From Amyelois transitella (Eukaryota; Arthropoda; Insecta; Lepidoptera; Pyralidae), in assembly GCF_032362555.1 (NCBI RefSeq), contig NC_083517.1, positions 1,012,001 through 1,076,000 of the forward strand: a DNA stretch of 64,000 nucleotides, written 5' to 3'. The position numbers and the translations under genes are program-made. Under the pieces are notes generated by a model. That model worked only from the letters and a program-made list of their open reading frames with translations. It had not been told where the DNA came from and did no database searches. Below, in pieces: positions 55,895-64,000 of this stretch (position 1 is the first letter of the stretch; each line of letters starts with the position of its first letter).

Positions 55895-58800
55895 ATGGAA
55901 AACGACCCGAATAACACTGTAAGTAGCTCCATTATTTATGGAAATCGTCGAAGGGTTCATAATCAAACATGTCGATAACTCAGACAGCGTGCTTTCTTGA
56001 AATTACCGCGAAAATTATCAATAAAGATGCCAGTCGATAAAAGAATAATAGGTTAAGCGGTAGGAGTCGAACTTGTACCTACTTCTTGAAACAGGAAAGC
56101 CATTATTAGTCTGATTCTATAACCTCTTGTCCACCGTTACGGGTTCTTTTTTCGTCTAGACCATGTAAAAATATGTTTTATTAATACGACAGGTATTGAA
56201 CGCGTAAGTAACGTACTTTTATATTATCTTAAAACATACATACATACATAAAATCACGCCTCTTTCCCGGAGTTTTTTTTTCTTTTTAAATATAATATGA
56301 GTTTTTTTTCCGAATTTTTCCTCTTTCTCTTTTTATCTTAAAACATGGATCATTGTAACATGATTCCAAACGTCCGAGATAAAAAAAAGGTACGTTAGGT
56401 GCGCGTTTAATACCTTTATAATTTACAAATAGTTTAACTCAAAGTGAAAGTTTAAAATCATGTTAATGTTTCATGAACCTTGCCATCCTTAAGGAATCTG
56501 TCAGAAGATAAATACTCTTCGATAATACCTATCTAGATCCTATAAATATTATTTATATAAAATTTATATTTGGTCCGAAATAAACCAAAAAAAATGCACG
56601 TTTGTCGGCCTCTGACACTGTATATACTTGAGATTTCTAACCAAAGACTAATTATATACTGAACAACAAATAATAACTAAGTACATAATTAAGCACATTA
56701 AGTCTGATTAGAAATTCCATCACGTCTATCAGTGATGACTAGTTTTATTAATCAAATAATACGATAGCCAGCATTTCCTTGTTTACAAAATCAACCACAT
56801 TAATGACATTGATGTAATCGGGTTAATGATTCGAGTCAGGTTTGACTCCTGTCTGACGTCCGTGAACCTATAAATAATGGAATCAAGTAGAATTTGCATT
56901 AGGTACTTAGGCAAAATATCTCCAGTCTGTTCCCGTTTCATTTTATGCAAATTCCATATTCTGTTTTATGTAAATAATTAATTTTGTAACCAAACCTAGC
57001 ATAGATATGGTTTTTGCATTATTCCATTTACACGTCGCCACCTACGCCTTCAGCAAAAAGATGAAGATAGAATTGAGATTCAAATGGTGGCAGGTTACAA
57101 GCTAATCTAAAGATCATTTAAAGATTGTTTAAATTTGAATACAAGCTAACACCTTATTGACCTCAAAAAACTTAAATCTAACTACATATATCTACTGTCG
57201 CTTCCAAAGCGCATGTGTAGAAGAAGCGGCGGAACAAACTACACTGCAGCATTTTCACCGGACGTTAATTTACTAATATAGATTTTTTAAACTAAATCGT
57301 GGACGATTATTATAATTAGTGGAGTGCAGATTAAATTAGAAGGCCTTCTATAATATCCACGGGAAATAATACAAAAGTTAGGCCTCATTATAGTATGTAT
57401 AAAAATAAAACTTGTTGCCATGCACATTGCACAAGGGGAGTCGCGTGCGCCGGCGCCGCATCTAAGATAAAACTTACGGATGTAGTTAGCATTGAGAATG
57501 CATCTCCTTAATATAAACATTTCTACGAAAACGTGACTGAATAAATATATAGATTAAACTAACCTATAAGATACTAATAGAAAGGTCTAGAACCTACCAA
57601 GGCGACGAGTTTGGATGAAAAGAATTATGAACATGAATATTAAACAAAAGGAGTATGTCTTATGCAAAGATCCTAATATGTGGTGTCTGCCTTTATCTAT
57701 CCCTATCCGAAAAAGAGGTACTTAGTTTTTACATAACATGAACGAACACGCCTGAACATTTTACCTGGCCTCTGGTCTCGGTGAAGACGCCAAAACCAGA
57801 TTATCTTACAAATGTCTGGGTTAGAAAAAGTGAATTCTTGCCGTGTGGTTCCCGGCACCGATACAAAAAAGAATAGGACCACTCCATCTCTTTCCCATAG
57901 ATATCGCAAAAGGCGACTACGGGATAGGCTTAAAAACTTGGGTTTCTTCTTTTAGGCGATGGGCTAGCAACCTGTCACTATTTGAATCTCAATTCCATCA
58001 TAAAGCCAAACAGATGAACGTGGCCTATCAGTCTTTTCAAGACTGTTGGCTCTGTCTACCTCACAAGGTAAGGTCTATATCAGACGTGATTATATGTATG
58101 TATGTATGACGGCCTCTGTGGCGCAGCGGTAGTGCGCTTGTCTGTGTCACCGGAGGTCCCGGGTTCGAATCCCGGCCAAGGCATGATGAGAAACGAACTA
58201 TCTCTGATTGGCCTGGGTCTTGGATGTTTATCTATACAAGTATTTATTATAAAATATAGTATCGTTGAGTTAGTATCTCGTAACACAAGTTTTGAACTTA
58301 CATCGAGGCTAACTCAATCTGTGTTATTTGTCCCGTATATATTTATTTTACATACATACATACATATGATCACGTCTATATCCCTTGGGGGGTAGACAGA
58401 GCCAACAGTCTTGAAAAGACTGAATGGCCACGTTCAGCTATTTGGCTTAATGATAAAACCGAGATTCAAATAGTGACAGGTTGCTAGCCCATCGCCTAAA
58501 AGAGGAATCCTAAGTTTATAAGCCTATCCCTTAGTCGCTTTTTACGACATCCATGGGAAAGAGATGGAGTGGTCCTATTCTTTTTTGTAATAGTGCCGGG
58601 AACCACACGGCACTATATATTTATATATTTGTTTATATATTTATTTTATTTATATTTATTTATTTATTTATGTATATGTGTGTGTTCTAGACGGCGGGTC
58701 GCGAGACGGGGCGGTGTATGTCGGTGGCCGCCATGCAGGCGCTCCACCGGCTGCGCGAGTGCCGGCTGCTGTGCGACGCCATCGTGCGGGCGGACGACGG

Positions 58801-61800
58801 CGCGGCCTTCCCGGTGCACCGCGCCATACTCTCCGCTTGCAGCCCGTACTTTCTGTGAGAAAGAGAATTTTTCACTTAAATATAAGGTGTATCGGGGCAT
58901 ACTCTCCGCTTGCAGCCCATACTTTCTGTGAGCTAACGGCTTAACTCTGTAAATAATTACTAAAAGATCGCTCTTGCCTATGCGGATCAGATGACGCGGC
59001 CTATAAGGTGTATCGGGGCATACTCTCCGCTTGCAGCCCATACTTTCTGTGAGCTAACGGCTTAACTCTGTAAATAATTACTAAAAGATCGCTCTTGCCT
59101 ATGCGGATCAGATGACGCGGCCTATAAGGTGTATCGGGGCATACTCTCCGCTTGCAGCCCATACTTTCTGTGAGCTAACGGCTTAACTCTGTAAAGAATT
59201 ACTAAAAGATCGCTCTTGCCTATGCGGATCAGATGACGCGGCCTATAAGGTGTATCGGGGCATACTCTCCGCTTGCAGACCATACTTTCTGTGAGCTAAC
59301 GGCCAAACTCTGTAAAGAATCATTTAAAGACCGCTCTTGTCTCTGCGGATCAGACCGGCCTACCAGGTGTATCGGGGCATCCTCTCCGCTTGCAGCCCGT
59401 ACTTTCTGTGAGCTAACGGCCAAACTCTGTAAAGAATCACTTAAAGATCGCTCTTGTATCTGCGGATCAGACCGGCCTACCAGGTGTATCGGGGCATCCT
59501 CTCCGCTTGCAGACCATACTTTCTGTGAGCTAACGGCCAAACTCTGTAAAGAATCACTTAAAGACCGCTCTTGTCTCTGCGGATCAGACCGGCCTACCAG
59601 GTGTATCGGGGCATCCTCTCCGCTTGCAGACCATACTTTCTGTGAGCTAACGGCCAAACTCTGTAAAGAATCACTTAAAGATCGCTCTTGTATCTGCGGA
59701 TCAGACCGGCCTACCAGGTGTATCGGGGCATCCTCTCCGCTTGCAGACCATACTTTCTGTGAGCTAACGGCCAAACTCTGTAAAGAATCACTTAAAGACC
59801 GCTCTTGTCTCTGCGGATCAGACCGGCCTACCAGGTGTATCGGGGCATCCTCTCCGCTTGCAGACCATACTTTCTGTGAGCTAACGGCCAAACTCTGTAA
59901 AGAATCACTTAAAGACCGCTCTTGTATCTGCGGATCAGACCGGCCTACCAGGTGTATCGGGGCATCCTCTCCGCTTGCAGACCATACTTTCTGTGAGCTA
60001 ACGGCCAAACTCTGTAAAGAATCACTTAAAGACCGCTCTTGTCTCTGCGGATCAGACCGGCCTACCAGGTGTATCGGGGCATCCTCTCCGCTTGCAGACC
60101 ATACTTTCTGTGAGCTAACGGCCAAACTCTGTAAAGAATCACTTAAAGACCGCTCTTGTATCTGCGGATCAGACCGGCCTACCAGGTGTATCGGGGCATC
60201 CTCTCCGCTTGCAGACCATACTTTCTGTGAGCTAACGGCCAAACTCTGTAAAGAATCACTTAAAGACCGCTCTTGTATCTGCGGATCAGACCGGCCTACC
60301 AGGTGTATCGGGGCATCCTCTCCGCTTGCAGACCATACTTTCTGTGAGCTAACGGCCAAACTCTGTAAAGAATCACTTAAAGACCGCTCTTGTATCTGCG
60401 GATCAGACCGGCCTACCAGGTGTATCGGGGCATCCTCTCCGCTTGCAGACCATACTTTCTGTGAGCTAACGGCCAAACTCTGTAAAGAATCACTTAAAGA
60501 CCGCTCTTGTCTCTGCGGATCAGACCGGCCTACCAGGTGTATCGGGGCATCCTCTCCGCTTGCAGACCATACTTTCTGTGAGCTAACGGCCAAACTCTGT
60601 AAAGAATCACTTAAAGACCGCTCTTGTCTCTGCGGATCAGACCGGCCTACCAGGTGTATCGGGGCATCCTCTCCGCTTGCAGACCATACTTTCTGTGAGC
60701 TAACGGCCAAACTCTGTAAAGAATCACTTAAAGACCGCTCTTGTCTCTGCGGATCAGACCGGCCTACCAGGTGTATCGGGGCATCCTCTCCGCTTGCAGA
60801 CCATACTTTCTGTGAGCTAACGGCCAAACTCTGTAAAGAATCACTTAAAGACCGCTCTTGTATCTGCGGATCAGACCGGCCTACCAGGTGTATCGGGGCA
60901 TCCTCTCCGCTTGCAGACCATACTTTCTGTGAGCTAACGGCCAAACTCTGTAAAGAATCACTTAAAGACCGCTCTTGTCTCTGCGGATCAGACCGGCCTA
61001 CCAGGTGTATCGGGGCATCCTCTCCGCTTGCAGACCATACTTTCTGTGAGCTAACGGCCAAACTCTGTAAAGAATCACTTAAAGACCGCTCTTGTATCTG
61101 CGGATCAGACCGGCCTACCAGGTGTATCGGGGCATCCTCTCCGCTTGCAGACCATACTTTCTGTGAGCTAACGGCCAAACTCTGTAAAGAATCACTTAAA
61201 GACCGCTCTTGTATCTGCGGATCAGACCGGCCTACCAGGTGTATCGGGGCATCCTCTCCGCTTGCAGACCATACTTTCTGTGAGCTAACGGCCAAACTCT
61301 GTAAAGAATCACTTAAAGAACGCTCTTGTCTCTGCGGATCAGACCGGCCTACCAGGTGTATCGGGGCATCCTCTCCGCTTGCAGACCATACTTTCTGTGA
61401 GCTAACGGCCAAACTCTGTAAAGAATCACTTAAAGACCGCTCTTGTATCTGCGGATCAGACCGGCCTACCAGGTGTATCGGGGCATCCTCTCCGCTTGCA
61501 GACCATACTTTCTGTGAGCTAACGGCCAAACTCTGTAAAGAATCACTTAAAGACCGCTCTTGTCTCTGCGGATCAGACCGGCCTACCAGGTGTATCGGGG
61601 CATCCTCTCCGCTTGCAGACCATACTTTCTGTGAGCTAACGGCCAAACTCTGTAAAGAATCACTTAAAGACCGCTCTTGTATCTGCGGATCAGACCGGCC
61701 TACCAGGTGTATCGGGGCATCCTCTCCGCTTGCAGACCATACTTTCTGTGAGCTAACGGCCAAACTCTGTAAAGAATCACTTAAAGACCGCTCTTGTATC

Positions 61801-64000
61801 TGCGGATCAGACCGGCCTACCAGGTGTATCGGGGCATCCTCTCCGCTTGCAGACCATACTTTCTGTGAGCTAACGGCCAAACTCTGTAAAGAATCACTTA
61901 AAGACCGCTCTTGTCTCTGCGGATCAGACCGGCCTACCAGGTGTATCGGGGCATCCTCTCCGCTTGCAGACCATACTTTCTGTGAGCTAACGGCCAAACT
62001 CTGTAAAGAATCACTTAAAGACCGCTCTTGTCTCTGCGGATCAGACCGGCCTACCAGGTGTATCGGGGCATCCTCTCCGCTTGCAGACCATACTTTCTGT
62101 GAGCTAACGGCCAAACTCTGTAAAGAATCACTTAAAGACCGCTCTTGTCTCTGCGGATCAGACCGGCCTACCAGGTGTATCGGGGCATCCTCTCCGCTTG
62201 CAGACCATACTTTCTGTGAGCTAACGGCCAAACTCTGTAAAGAATCACTTAAAGACCGCTCTTGTCTCTGCGGATCAGACCGGCCTACCAGGTGTATCGG
62301 GGCATCCTCTCCGCTTGCAGACCATACTTTCTGTGAGCTAACGGCTTAACTCTGTAAAGAATTTTTTACTTAAAGACCGTTCTTGTCTCTGCGGATCAGA
62401 CCGGTCTACCAGGTGTATTAGTGCATCATATTGCACAGGATCGCTTTTGACTACGCATTAAATGGTGCGGCCTTCCTGATGCATCGCGCCATCCTCTACG
62501 TTTTCAGATCTTACTTTCTGTGAACTTATATGTAACAAATTTCTGTAAATACTCTTCTTGTCGAAGCGGTATATTGTAAGAAGTCACTCTAATATCTGAG
62601 TATCTGATGGCTTAGCCTTTACAACAATTTTGAGTCAAATTACACACATACATACAGGGTAGACAGAGCCAACAGTCTTGAAAAGTATGACCACGTTCAG
62701 CTATTTGGCTTATTAATAGAATTCAAATAGAAACAGGTTGTTAGCCCATCGCCTAAAAGAAGAATCACAAGTTTATAAGCCTATCCCTTATTCGCCTTTT
62801 CAACAACTTTCATGGAAATGAGACATAGTGGTCTTATTCTTTTTTTTATTGGTGCCGGGAACCACACGGCACTTGAGTTAAATTGGTGTGATTCATCCCC
62901 TTTTATGTAAATCCAGGGCACTGTTTACAACAACTCTTCACCGGCGCGAGCAGAGCGACGTGGTGATATCGGGTGTGCGCTCCGAGATCCTGCAACTCCT
63001 GATCGAGTACGCTTACCTCCGGCGCATCGACGTCTCTGACTCCAACGTTCACGAGCTGCTGATGACCGCCGACTACCTGGCCTTCCTCGGAGTACTGCAA
63101 CTGTGCTGTGACCATCTCTACAACTCGCTGAATCCGAAAAACTGCTTAGGGATCATGATGTTTGCCAGGTAAATAAATGTTGGTCCTAATAATTTCCTGT
63201 TATCTCCTGTAATCTCTGTTTGGTTTCCTTCCACCCAAACGTTGATTGGAAGAGATTATATTAGCTATTAGTCCACCTTTGGGCTATCTCTGTCTGTTTT
63301 GTAGATACTGTTTTTAACGTTTTACTCTTATGGTGCAATAAAGAGTTTTATCTATCTATCTAGATTCAGGTAGGTCACTTCGGAGTTCTATTACTCATTG
63401 ACGTCCCAGACTTAAATGTCACGATCTTTTGAATTCTGCTGACTACTTAGTCTTCCTCGGAGTACTGCAACTATGCTGTGACCATCTCTAACAACTCGCT
63501 AAATCGGAAGAACTGCTTAGGGATCATGATGTTCTAAAGCGTGAAACTATATCTTCAAGTAATGAAGCCTCAAATCGAAATATACATCAACACCTGGTCG
63601 ATGTTTGCCTTCTAGCATTTGGAAACTGTGAATCTGTTTCGATAATCTCTACACTTGCTCAGTCTAAAGTCCTTTATAGATGATTAAATATAAAGTTTTA
63701 GAGGTCGGCTACTTACACGGACACCAAATTCACTTGCTAATTTATATGCGTTCCAATTTTTCCTACCCAGCTGAAAGCCAAATGTTGTGTATAATCCTAA
63801 TGCATCAACAGGCGCGTCTTCTGCTACAAGTTAGAGGCTGACTCTCGGCGTTATTTGCTGCGCTACTTCGTCACCGTGGCGACCCAAAGCGAGGAGTTCC
63901 TACACTTGCCTCTGGAGGAGCTGAACTCTATAATTCTGGAAGACGAGCTCAACGTGAAGAGTGAGGAGGTGGTGTGGGAGGCTGTGCTGCGCTGGGTCAA
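55895..64000 (+). CDS. klhl10: Kelch-like protein 10 (BTB-BACK), 5' part
   Basis: Adaptor that links substrates to the CUL3 ubiquitin ligase; KLHL10 acts in spermatogenesis in mammals and flies. Exons: 55895-55918 (MENDPNNT, inferred start), 58691-58854, 62917-63168 and 63812 onward, cut by the window end at 209 complete codons. All phases agree. BTB domain about residues 23-130: LCDAIVRADDGAAFPVHRAIL, SACSPYF, then IEYAYLRRIDVS and LLMTADYLAFLGVLQLCCDHL. BACK starts at NCLGIMMFARR and continues through LPLEELNSIILEDELNVKSE to EAVLRWVK. The Kelch repeats lie beyond the window. The first exon is short and could be wrong; a Met at 58718 is an alternative start. Intron 2 holds the satellite built from this gene's own exon. 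Confidence 0.85.
57160..57310 (-). mobile_element. LINE-C 3' UTR piece
   Basis: GCTTCCAAAGCGCATGTGTAG block and flanks, in KLHL10 intron 1. Confidence 0.8.
57595..57720 (+). mobile_element. LINE-F 3' end, decayed
   Basis: GATGAAAAGAATTATGAACATG and GTGTCTGCCTTTATC resemble the C-terminal frame; the tail is lost. Confidence 0.5.
57839..58108 (+). mobile_element. SINE-A copy
   Basis: Full-length with (TATG)n tail. Confidence 0.9.
58109..58345 (+). mobile_element. SINE-B, best copy
   Basis: Sits exactly at the end of the SINE-A tail. Head has A box TGTGGCGCAGCGGTAGTG and B box GGGTTCGAATCCC about 30 bases apart, as in a tRNA. Body runs from GGCATGATGAGAAACG to TTATTTGTCCCG. Confidence 0.93.
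58350..58612 (-). mobile_element. SINE-A copy
   Basis: Full-length; its 5' end is about 80 bases before the KLHL10 exon at 58691. Confidence 0.92.
58885..62380 (+). repeat. Satellite made from a KLHL10 exon end (3 x 121 bp, 26 x 117 bp)
   Basis: Tandem array starting 30 bases after the exon that ends at 58854. Every unit includes about 30 bases matching the exon end (CTCTCCGCTTGCAG, then CATACTTTCT) and the donor GTGAGC. The first three units are 121 bp, later ones 117 bp with a C/A variant at TTGT(C/A)TCTGCGG. Because 117 is divisible by 3, both strands stay open for about 1000 codons, which is an artefact. Confidence 0.97.
62440..62525 (+). pseudogene. Diverged longer copy of the KLHL10 exon end
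   Basis: GTGCGGCCTTCCTGATGCAT and CGCGCCATCCTCTACG repeat a longer stretch of the real exon (58800-58854) than the satellite units do, ending at TTTCTGTGAAC. Confidence 0.85.
62651..62872 (-). mobile_element. SINE-A copy
   Basis: Complete order with several deletions; ends CCACACGGCAC, 45 bases before the KLHL10 exon at 62917. Confidence 0.85.
63408..63536 (+). pseudogene. Partial copy of KLHL10 exon 3
   Basis: Repeats the last ~120 bases of the exon at 62917-63168 with a one-base insertion (CTCTAACAACTC) and loss of the donor, so it cannot be used in frame. Confidence 0.85.

Follow-up and report, generated by a model that had tools for sequence, protein, structure and literature searches.

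The intron that follows a KLHL10-like coding exon in Amyelois transitella is occupied by a satellite whose units each repeat the 3' edge of that exon together with its 5' splice donor. Judged from sequence, this anatomy matches exon stuttering, here in a moth and apparently with a bias toward donors. The array lies in the 64,000-nucleotide stretch of DNA that was analysed (the window), and we give a probability of roughly 0.75 to the following reading. The array formed by stuttering, that is, by local tandem duplication with later growth and homogenisation; it is tolerated because the exon-proximal donor is used; and the same process has acted in other genes. The initial event would have been a tandem duplication, in place, of a segment comprising the exon edge, the donor and some 55 nt of the intron. 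Slippage or unequal exchange would then have expanded and homogenised the copies; in this scheme unit 0 is the real exon edge. Splicing would use the exon-proximal donor together with the acceptor of the same exon. Occasional splicing at a decoy would add intron sequence, meet an immediate stop and cost the cell that transcript. Such arrays could persist because extra donors that lie inside the intron, downstream of the true one, would normally be ignored. We infer this mechanism of duplication, the use of the first donor and the near-neutrality of the arrays.

The host gene has a coding exon at 58691..58854, a next exon at 62917..63168 and the start of a third at 63812..64000, all on the + strand. 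The third exon continues beyond the window, and its exact start was taken from the sequence by reading. These three pieces join in frame, and the joined peptide carries a BTB domain that spans the first junction (PF00651, E = 4.8e-26) and a BACK domain (PF07707, E = 5.7e-17) whose frame continues into the third exon. Further open stretches downstream on the same contig match Kelch proteins and motifs in pieces, and together with the BTB and BACK domains these matches make the host a kelch-like gene. KLHL10 is a presumed name for this gene. The next exon is preceded by the acceptor AAATCCAG/GGCACTG (a slash marks the splice border) and ends at the donor CCAG/GTAAAT. The array-bearing intron therefore covers 58855-62916 (4062 nt), and the 30 intact units fill 3526 nt of it.

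Two other repeated elements are present near these exons. The following intron contains one decayed copy (63396..63533, + strand; 83% over 139 columns) of positions 63025-63162 in the 3' part of the next exon; the copy leaves out the donor and carries a frameshift. A dispersed repeat of about 270 bp, present for example at 58349-58614 and 62657-62873, flanks the exon and the array, and AT-rich sequence after this repeat adjoins the exon's acceptor. The repeat is very abundant, with 119 BLAST hits in 200 kb of sampled genome.

Tandem Repeats Finder (TRF) places the array at 58885-62418 with a period of 117, 30.1 copies and a score of 6511. Exact parsing resolves it into 30 units, four of 121 bp and 26 of 117 bp, plus one decayed unit. 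All of them lie on the + strand. The three units at the left edge (58885..59247) are 121 bp each, and alignment to the exon shows that their 3' half is the most exon-like. They are followed by 26 homogenised core units of 117 bp (59248..62289; units 4-29) and by a last intact unit of 121 bp (62290..62410) that is partly diverged from the others. The decayed outermost unit (about 62430..62551) matches a left-edge unit at 86/126 positions. Its exon-like part (62464-62523) agrees with the exon at 49/60 positions, and its donor has been altered to GTGAAC, with a U1-duplex energy of -1.7.

Each of the 30 intact units has a decoy donor, TTTCT/GTGAG (58928..62337, + strand; first GT at 58928, last at 62333). 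The composite pattern CTTGCAG-N12-GTGAG, an acceptor-like site 12 bases before a donor, has 31 + strand matches in the window, one in the exon and one in each of the 30 units, and none on the - strand. The preliminary description of an exon end and donor turned satellite in the following intron, with about 30 tandem units that each carry CTTGCAG 12 bases before the donor, is thus borne out. The decayed full unit lies beyond the end that it gave (62380), and its figure of about 30 copied exon bases is too short, since the similarity to the exon spans 57-72 columns. Left-edge units agree with the exon at 50/59 positions over 58801-58859, or at 59/72 over 58790-58859 under looser scoring, and core units agree at 48/57; shuffle maxima are far lower. 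The copied part runs through the exon end and donor, covering 58803-58859 or more, and the source of the unit within the exon is approximately 58790-58854. After the real donor come 30 nt that resemble a shortened unit, and positions 58864-58880 match the last unit at 16/17 positions. Because this real intron start is in register with the units, the exon edge itself appears to be the array's initial unit, which has lost sequence through an internal deletion.

The real donor (TCT/GTGAGA, GTGAG at 58855..58859, + strand) is weak. Its predicted duplex with what we take to be the 5' end of U1 has an energy of -4.4, and the same value is obtained for the eight unit donors tested, as against -8.3 for the donor of the next exon. 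With equal duplex energies the true donor has no advantage in sequence strength, and position is therefore the obvious candidate for how it is chosen. Cells probably must pick one true splice signal among long rows of copies here. Splicing at any of the 30 decoy donors would lead to an identical in-frame stop at 58856. The units also hold AAG/GTGTAT, a candidate recursive splicing site with a U1-duplex energy of -5.2.

The unit looks to have arisen locally from the adjacent exon edge. A 234-bp unit query was compared with the whole genome (327,366,114 bases in 33 contigs); only the best candidates were scored, so counts from this search are lower bounds. It returned at least 17 matches, all within C13:1070803-1074526, which holds the exon, the array and the decayed relic. 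A second locus unlinked to the gene, which would have pointed away from this exon as the source, was not found among the at least 17 matches in 327 Mb. An exact genome scan for CTTGCAG-N12-GTGAG yields 54 matches, of which 31 are the ones in this gene, and only those 31 end in TACTTTCTGTGAG. A 31-letter unit pattern has no exact match in viral or bacterial contigs. If the exon end had been taken up by a satellite from elsewhere, or donated by a KLHL10 paralogue, the difference of about 16% between core units and exon would be accommodated, and an old klhl10 sister copy is reported in insects (PMC6826512). Such an outside source is extremely unlikely, given the single locus among the scored candidates of the unit query and the near identity between units and adjacent exon in most of the other arrays described below.

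The uniformity of the units is confined to the core. Units 4-29 differ by a mean of 0.9% per site and comprise only six distinct sequences among 26, whereas divergence from them reaches 11% in the left three units and 5% in the last unit. The extreme uniformity noted earlier thus holds for the core and fails at the edges. Similarly, of the earlier suggestion that the array is either young or homogenised, homogenisation stands and youth does not, as the exon differs from the units by about 15-16% and from the relic by about 18% while the core varies by less than 1%. Such a layout, with old copies toward the ends and uniform ones between them, is typical of arrays that undergo unequal exchange. 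On this sequence evidence, the array locus is old and its core has been homogenised. The units also carry interspersed variants, such as a C/A difference at one site that divides them 18 to 12.

These variants bear on whether the array could be an assembly artefact, produced from a short duplication through collapse or over-expansion of its reads. The exact copy numbers rest on one assembly. An artefact would have to produce interspersed variants, diverged edges and a decayed relic, and independent arrays with different units exist at other genes, which makes it very unlikely.

The similarity between units and exon is unevenly distributed along the copied part. Left-edge units have mismatches to the exon at 8/24 positions in the 5' half and only 1/35 in the 3' half (Fisher p = 0.002), and core units have 6/22 and 3/35, respectively (p = 0.075). 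The decayed relic has no such skew (4/26 versus 7/34, p = 0.74). At two variable sites, unit 5 has the same two bases as the exon. The exon-like 3' half of the left-edge units could reflect constraint or conversion rather than neutrality, and it is possible that the exon and the array have exchanged sequence.

The reading frame permits a functional interpretation of the array, in which the units are in-frame mini-exons or act as a splicing rheostat to set the level of KLHL10 output in testis. From the acceptor-like GATCAG to the next donor, 26 of the 29 pairs bound a 54-nt stretch that is free of stops in the frame of the gene. These stretches are separated by 63-nt gaps, and joining all 26 introduces no stop. 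The 12-nt mini-exon that would follow CTTGCAG is also in frame in 30/30 units. However, the three left-edge GATCAG-donor pairs enclose 58 nt and contain a stop, and the same design does not recur elsewhere: of the first 10 other arrays examined, one has a period divisible by three and none has an exon copy of such a length, and the corresponding pseudo-exon in the PSMD2 array is 77 nt. Donor/acceptor pairing within units has no consistent coding potential across loci. In-frame mini-exons are attractive at KLHL10, and we reject them as a general explanation because the frames do not fit at the other loci. Two further signals of function were considered and set aside. Long open frames cross the array (1047 and 1038 aa), yet two stop-free frames of six are reached by 21% of shuffled units. 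Two units fold into RNA structures no better than those of shuffles (z = -0.49).

A human array offers a parallel in a single gene. A VNTR in ABCA7 intron 18 is reported to have a 25-bp unit with 23.7 copies in the reference, starting at the GT of the exon 18 donor, and exon 19 skipping is reported to increase with VNTR length (PMC5954066). Retention of one unit there is a minor isoform of about 2% that is independent of VNTR length (PMC5954066). As in the moth, a donor is present in every tandem unit directly after the exon, at what is in ABCA7 a single human locus. If the moth array behaves in the same manner, the expectation is mostly first-donor use, a little one-unit retention that ends in transcript decay, and perhaps length-dependent skipping. 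A splicing rheostat in testis is no more than a possibility, and we consider a functional array of either kind unlikely.

A second array of the same design occurs in the gene for the 26S proteasome subunit PSMD2 (E = 2.2e-71). It was met by chance rather than through a screen, as 15 of the 54 genome matches to CTTGCAG-N12-GTGAG. Because the pattern matched the coding part of this array on the other strand, PSMD2 was not picked for having a donor. The array (C12:3938239-3940556) consists of 15.1 copies of a 153-bp unit with a 99% match, each containing the exon end and donor, and it lies inside the next intron. The last 82 nt of the real exon are identical to the first copy. Fifteen occurrences of the donor stretch GACTGCAAGAACAGTCAGT are spaced exactly 153 bp apart, and the real donor is the first of them. 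Parsing by unit start (15 in all) yields 13 identical units, another that differs by a single change, and the truncated end of the array. The native intron after the array resembles, by eye only, the exon at the unit start, which suggests an exchange at short similarity.

A genome-wide scan indicates that these arrays belong to a recurrent class. Triple donors were sought as GGTRAGT-N{100,130} repeated three times, with the reversed motif as the control. The donor motif gave 173 + 152 = 325 matches against 14 + 51 = 65 for the control, a ratio that overstates the excess in loci because match counts weigh copy number. When matches are grouped by hand on the contigs of the listed donor matches (C1 to C17), there are at least 23 donor clusters versus eight control clusters, two of which are themselves donor arrays matched through overlap. 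The complete list of the reversed-motif control contains 19 clusters genome-wide, also counted by hand. Two stretches on C1 were treated as one donor cluster.

The 5' edges of all 23 listed donor clusters were inspected, starting with the first 10 that looked coding and continuing with the other 13. A cluster was assigned to the class if at least 50 open codons run into the first donor and the exon end aligns downstream with a score above the best of 200 shuffles. Open codons were counted in whichever of the three phases stays open longest, and such a run may extend across an acceptor. On this basis 17 of the 23 listed clusters qualify (L040-L049, L051, L052, L054, L055, L056, L060 and L061), and in all 17 the unit consists of a coding exon end, a donor and an intron start. 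For L054, 49 codons are open in the phase that is probably the true one and 69 in another phase. L050 is borderline, with a 13/13-nt match that scores 26 against a shuffle maximum of 28, and L053, L057, L059 and L062 fail. L058 passes by the numbers and was set aside, since the stretch starts inside the array and the real exon is not seen. In our judgement, the KLHL10-like array is real, is no product of chance and is a member of this class.

The members of the class are mostly closer to their exons than the KLHL10 units are. Copy identity to the exon is at least 95% in 14/17 arrays and 78-92% in three (L052, L054 and L055). The copied exon part ends at the exon border in 16 of the 17, while that of L055 stops 8 nt short. 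The first 10 arrays have an exon copy of 61-104 nt at 99-100% identity, an intron part of 20-59 nt and a period of 110-133 bp. Tails occur at the 3' edges of nine of 10 arrays and stop at differing points in the unit with no single rule; at L070 the array continued past the fetched stretch at its 3' edge. KLHL10 is atypical in this company in that its array is older and its donor is weak, no better than its decoys. In L042 and L043, the units appear to join an upstream exon part directly to the exon end, as if the copy were internally deleted.

Among the 17 hosts, eight can be named by matches above the cut-off or with E values of 1e-7 or better: Tra1 ring, HSP70, ANTH, protein kinase, PRP16, Integrator subunit 1, Peptidase M1 and laminin G. 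L043 matches a DIL domain below the cut-off. The searches gave no name for L041, L044, L045, L054, L055, L056, L060 and L061, and for L041 no solved structure matched either. We take L041 to be an integrin alpha and L054 an SLC17 gene, the HSP70 match to be HSPA4 and the ANTH match to be HIP1R/Sla2, and the genes that host arrays are presumably essential. The arrays sit on several contigs of about 10-14 Mb. As a background sample, 10 kb was taken from every contig of C1-C20 at a fixed place (20 stretches, 200 kb in total), and this sample contains three arrays with a period of at least 40, each with two copies. Arrays of the size found in KLHL10 are therefore not everywhere.

The acceptor side shows a different balance. 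A scan of the same design for TTGCAGR gave 66 + 52 = 118 matches against 141 + 7 = 148 for its control, whose lopsided counts look to be dominated by a few long arrays. Grouped by hand, the listed acceptor matches form 14 clusters, of which nine are on C1-C17 and one is the KLHL10 array itself. At C22:574761-576732 and C24:2840167-2841172, TTGCAG is followed by GT, and these may be further donor arrays read through CAG/GT. A donor-side excess next to one acceptor word without an excess suggests a donor bias, as a lead and no proof, and we infer that acceptor-side arrays are truly rarer.

This asymmetry might arise where the copies are made rather than where they are kept. If 5' splice sites are hotspots, then co-transcriptional events at GC-rich exon edges, such as R-loops, U1-bound nascent RNA or re-insertion of eccDNA, would generate donor arrays, and the bias would be mechanistic instead of a selective filter. 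The excess of donor arrays over the reversed-motif control, which the one acceptor word lacks, fits this model, as does the GC content of the copied exon parts: 0.54-0.80 in the first 10 arrays, 0.68 in PSMD2 and 0.53 in KLHL10, all as raw values. The chicken authors likewise tie stuttering to GC-rich coding sequence (PMC12954441). However, a tolerance filter predicts the same asymmetry, because a duplicated acceptor ahead of the true one would disrupt the exon, and the acceptor side is sampled weakly. We regard the hotspot model as rather unlikely. A broader version of the idea is donor-specific amplification, in which arrays form from the 3' ends of exons together with the adjoining 5' splice sites, but not from exon starts, in many genes of basic function (Tra1/TRRAP, PRP16, Integrator 1, PSMD2 and others). 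The asymmetry would then mark an active hotspot at transcribed 5' splice sites that goes beyond what tolerance by splicing explains, and splicing would have to choose the first of many near-identical donors by position alone. We advance this claim only tentatively, as a minority possibility.

Stuttering by duplication in place, the reading that we prefer, has its closest counterpart in the chicken. There, a lateral exon part with its splice site is copied through the intron in 115 genes and 236 introns, and 190 of the 236 are on dot microchromosomes, according to a 2026 report in Genome Biol Evol (PMC12954441). More than 90% of the sources lie no more than one base from an exon border, the exon part is 20-187 bp long (median 36) and is present in 1-44 copies, and 183/192 such introns vary in length between birds (PMC12954441). 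The authors describe the phenomenon in birds, and in gerbils as data not shown (PMC12954441). The moth arrays resemble these cases in having tandem blocks, tens to hundreds of bases long, confined to the intron (here 117/121-bp units at 58885-62410), in having blocks that hold the adjacent exon edge and splice site with the source at the border, and in affecting several genes (here 17 of the 23 listed clusters, KLHL10 and PSMD2). They differ in their host and in their location on ordinary large contigs; the concentration on dot microchromosomes, which the moth arrays lack, is a feature of the avian case and no part of the anatomy. The part of that report at hand names donor or acceptor with no stated bias, whereas donor copies exceed the control in the moth.

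Two further systems share some of these features. In human segmental duplications, a minisatellite-type expansion of internal tandem repeats where exon and intron meet is able to create or activate splice sites (PMC2812944). These repeats have units of about 30 bp in about four copies on average and change the exon/intron structure, and the part of that study at hand describes no long arrays of decoy donors (PMC2812944). A proposal from Drosophila is that single old tandem exon duplications produced new introns (PMC2891723). It shares with the moth arrays a partial exon duplication beside a splice motif in which one copy turned intronic (PMC2891723), while the moth intron existed beforehand and was filled by many copies. 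A limited literature search found no description of donor arrays in insects beyond the papers cited here.

The occurrence of stuttering anatomy on ordinary chromosomes of a moth would detach the process from avian chromosome biology and direct attention to the exon edge itself. The arrays also constitute natural competition experiments: PSMD2 offers 15 donors whose surroundings are identical, and the KLHL10-like gene offers 31 that share one core. Competition among donors in such arrays tests how the spliceosome picks the exon-proximal site. Arrays of this kind may also create false exons in genome annotation. A shorter coding repeat is present elsewhere in the window, where 11.5 copies of a 30-bp unit at 1629-1972 lie in a proline-rich open frame that we presume to be formin-like.
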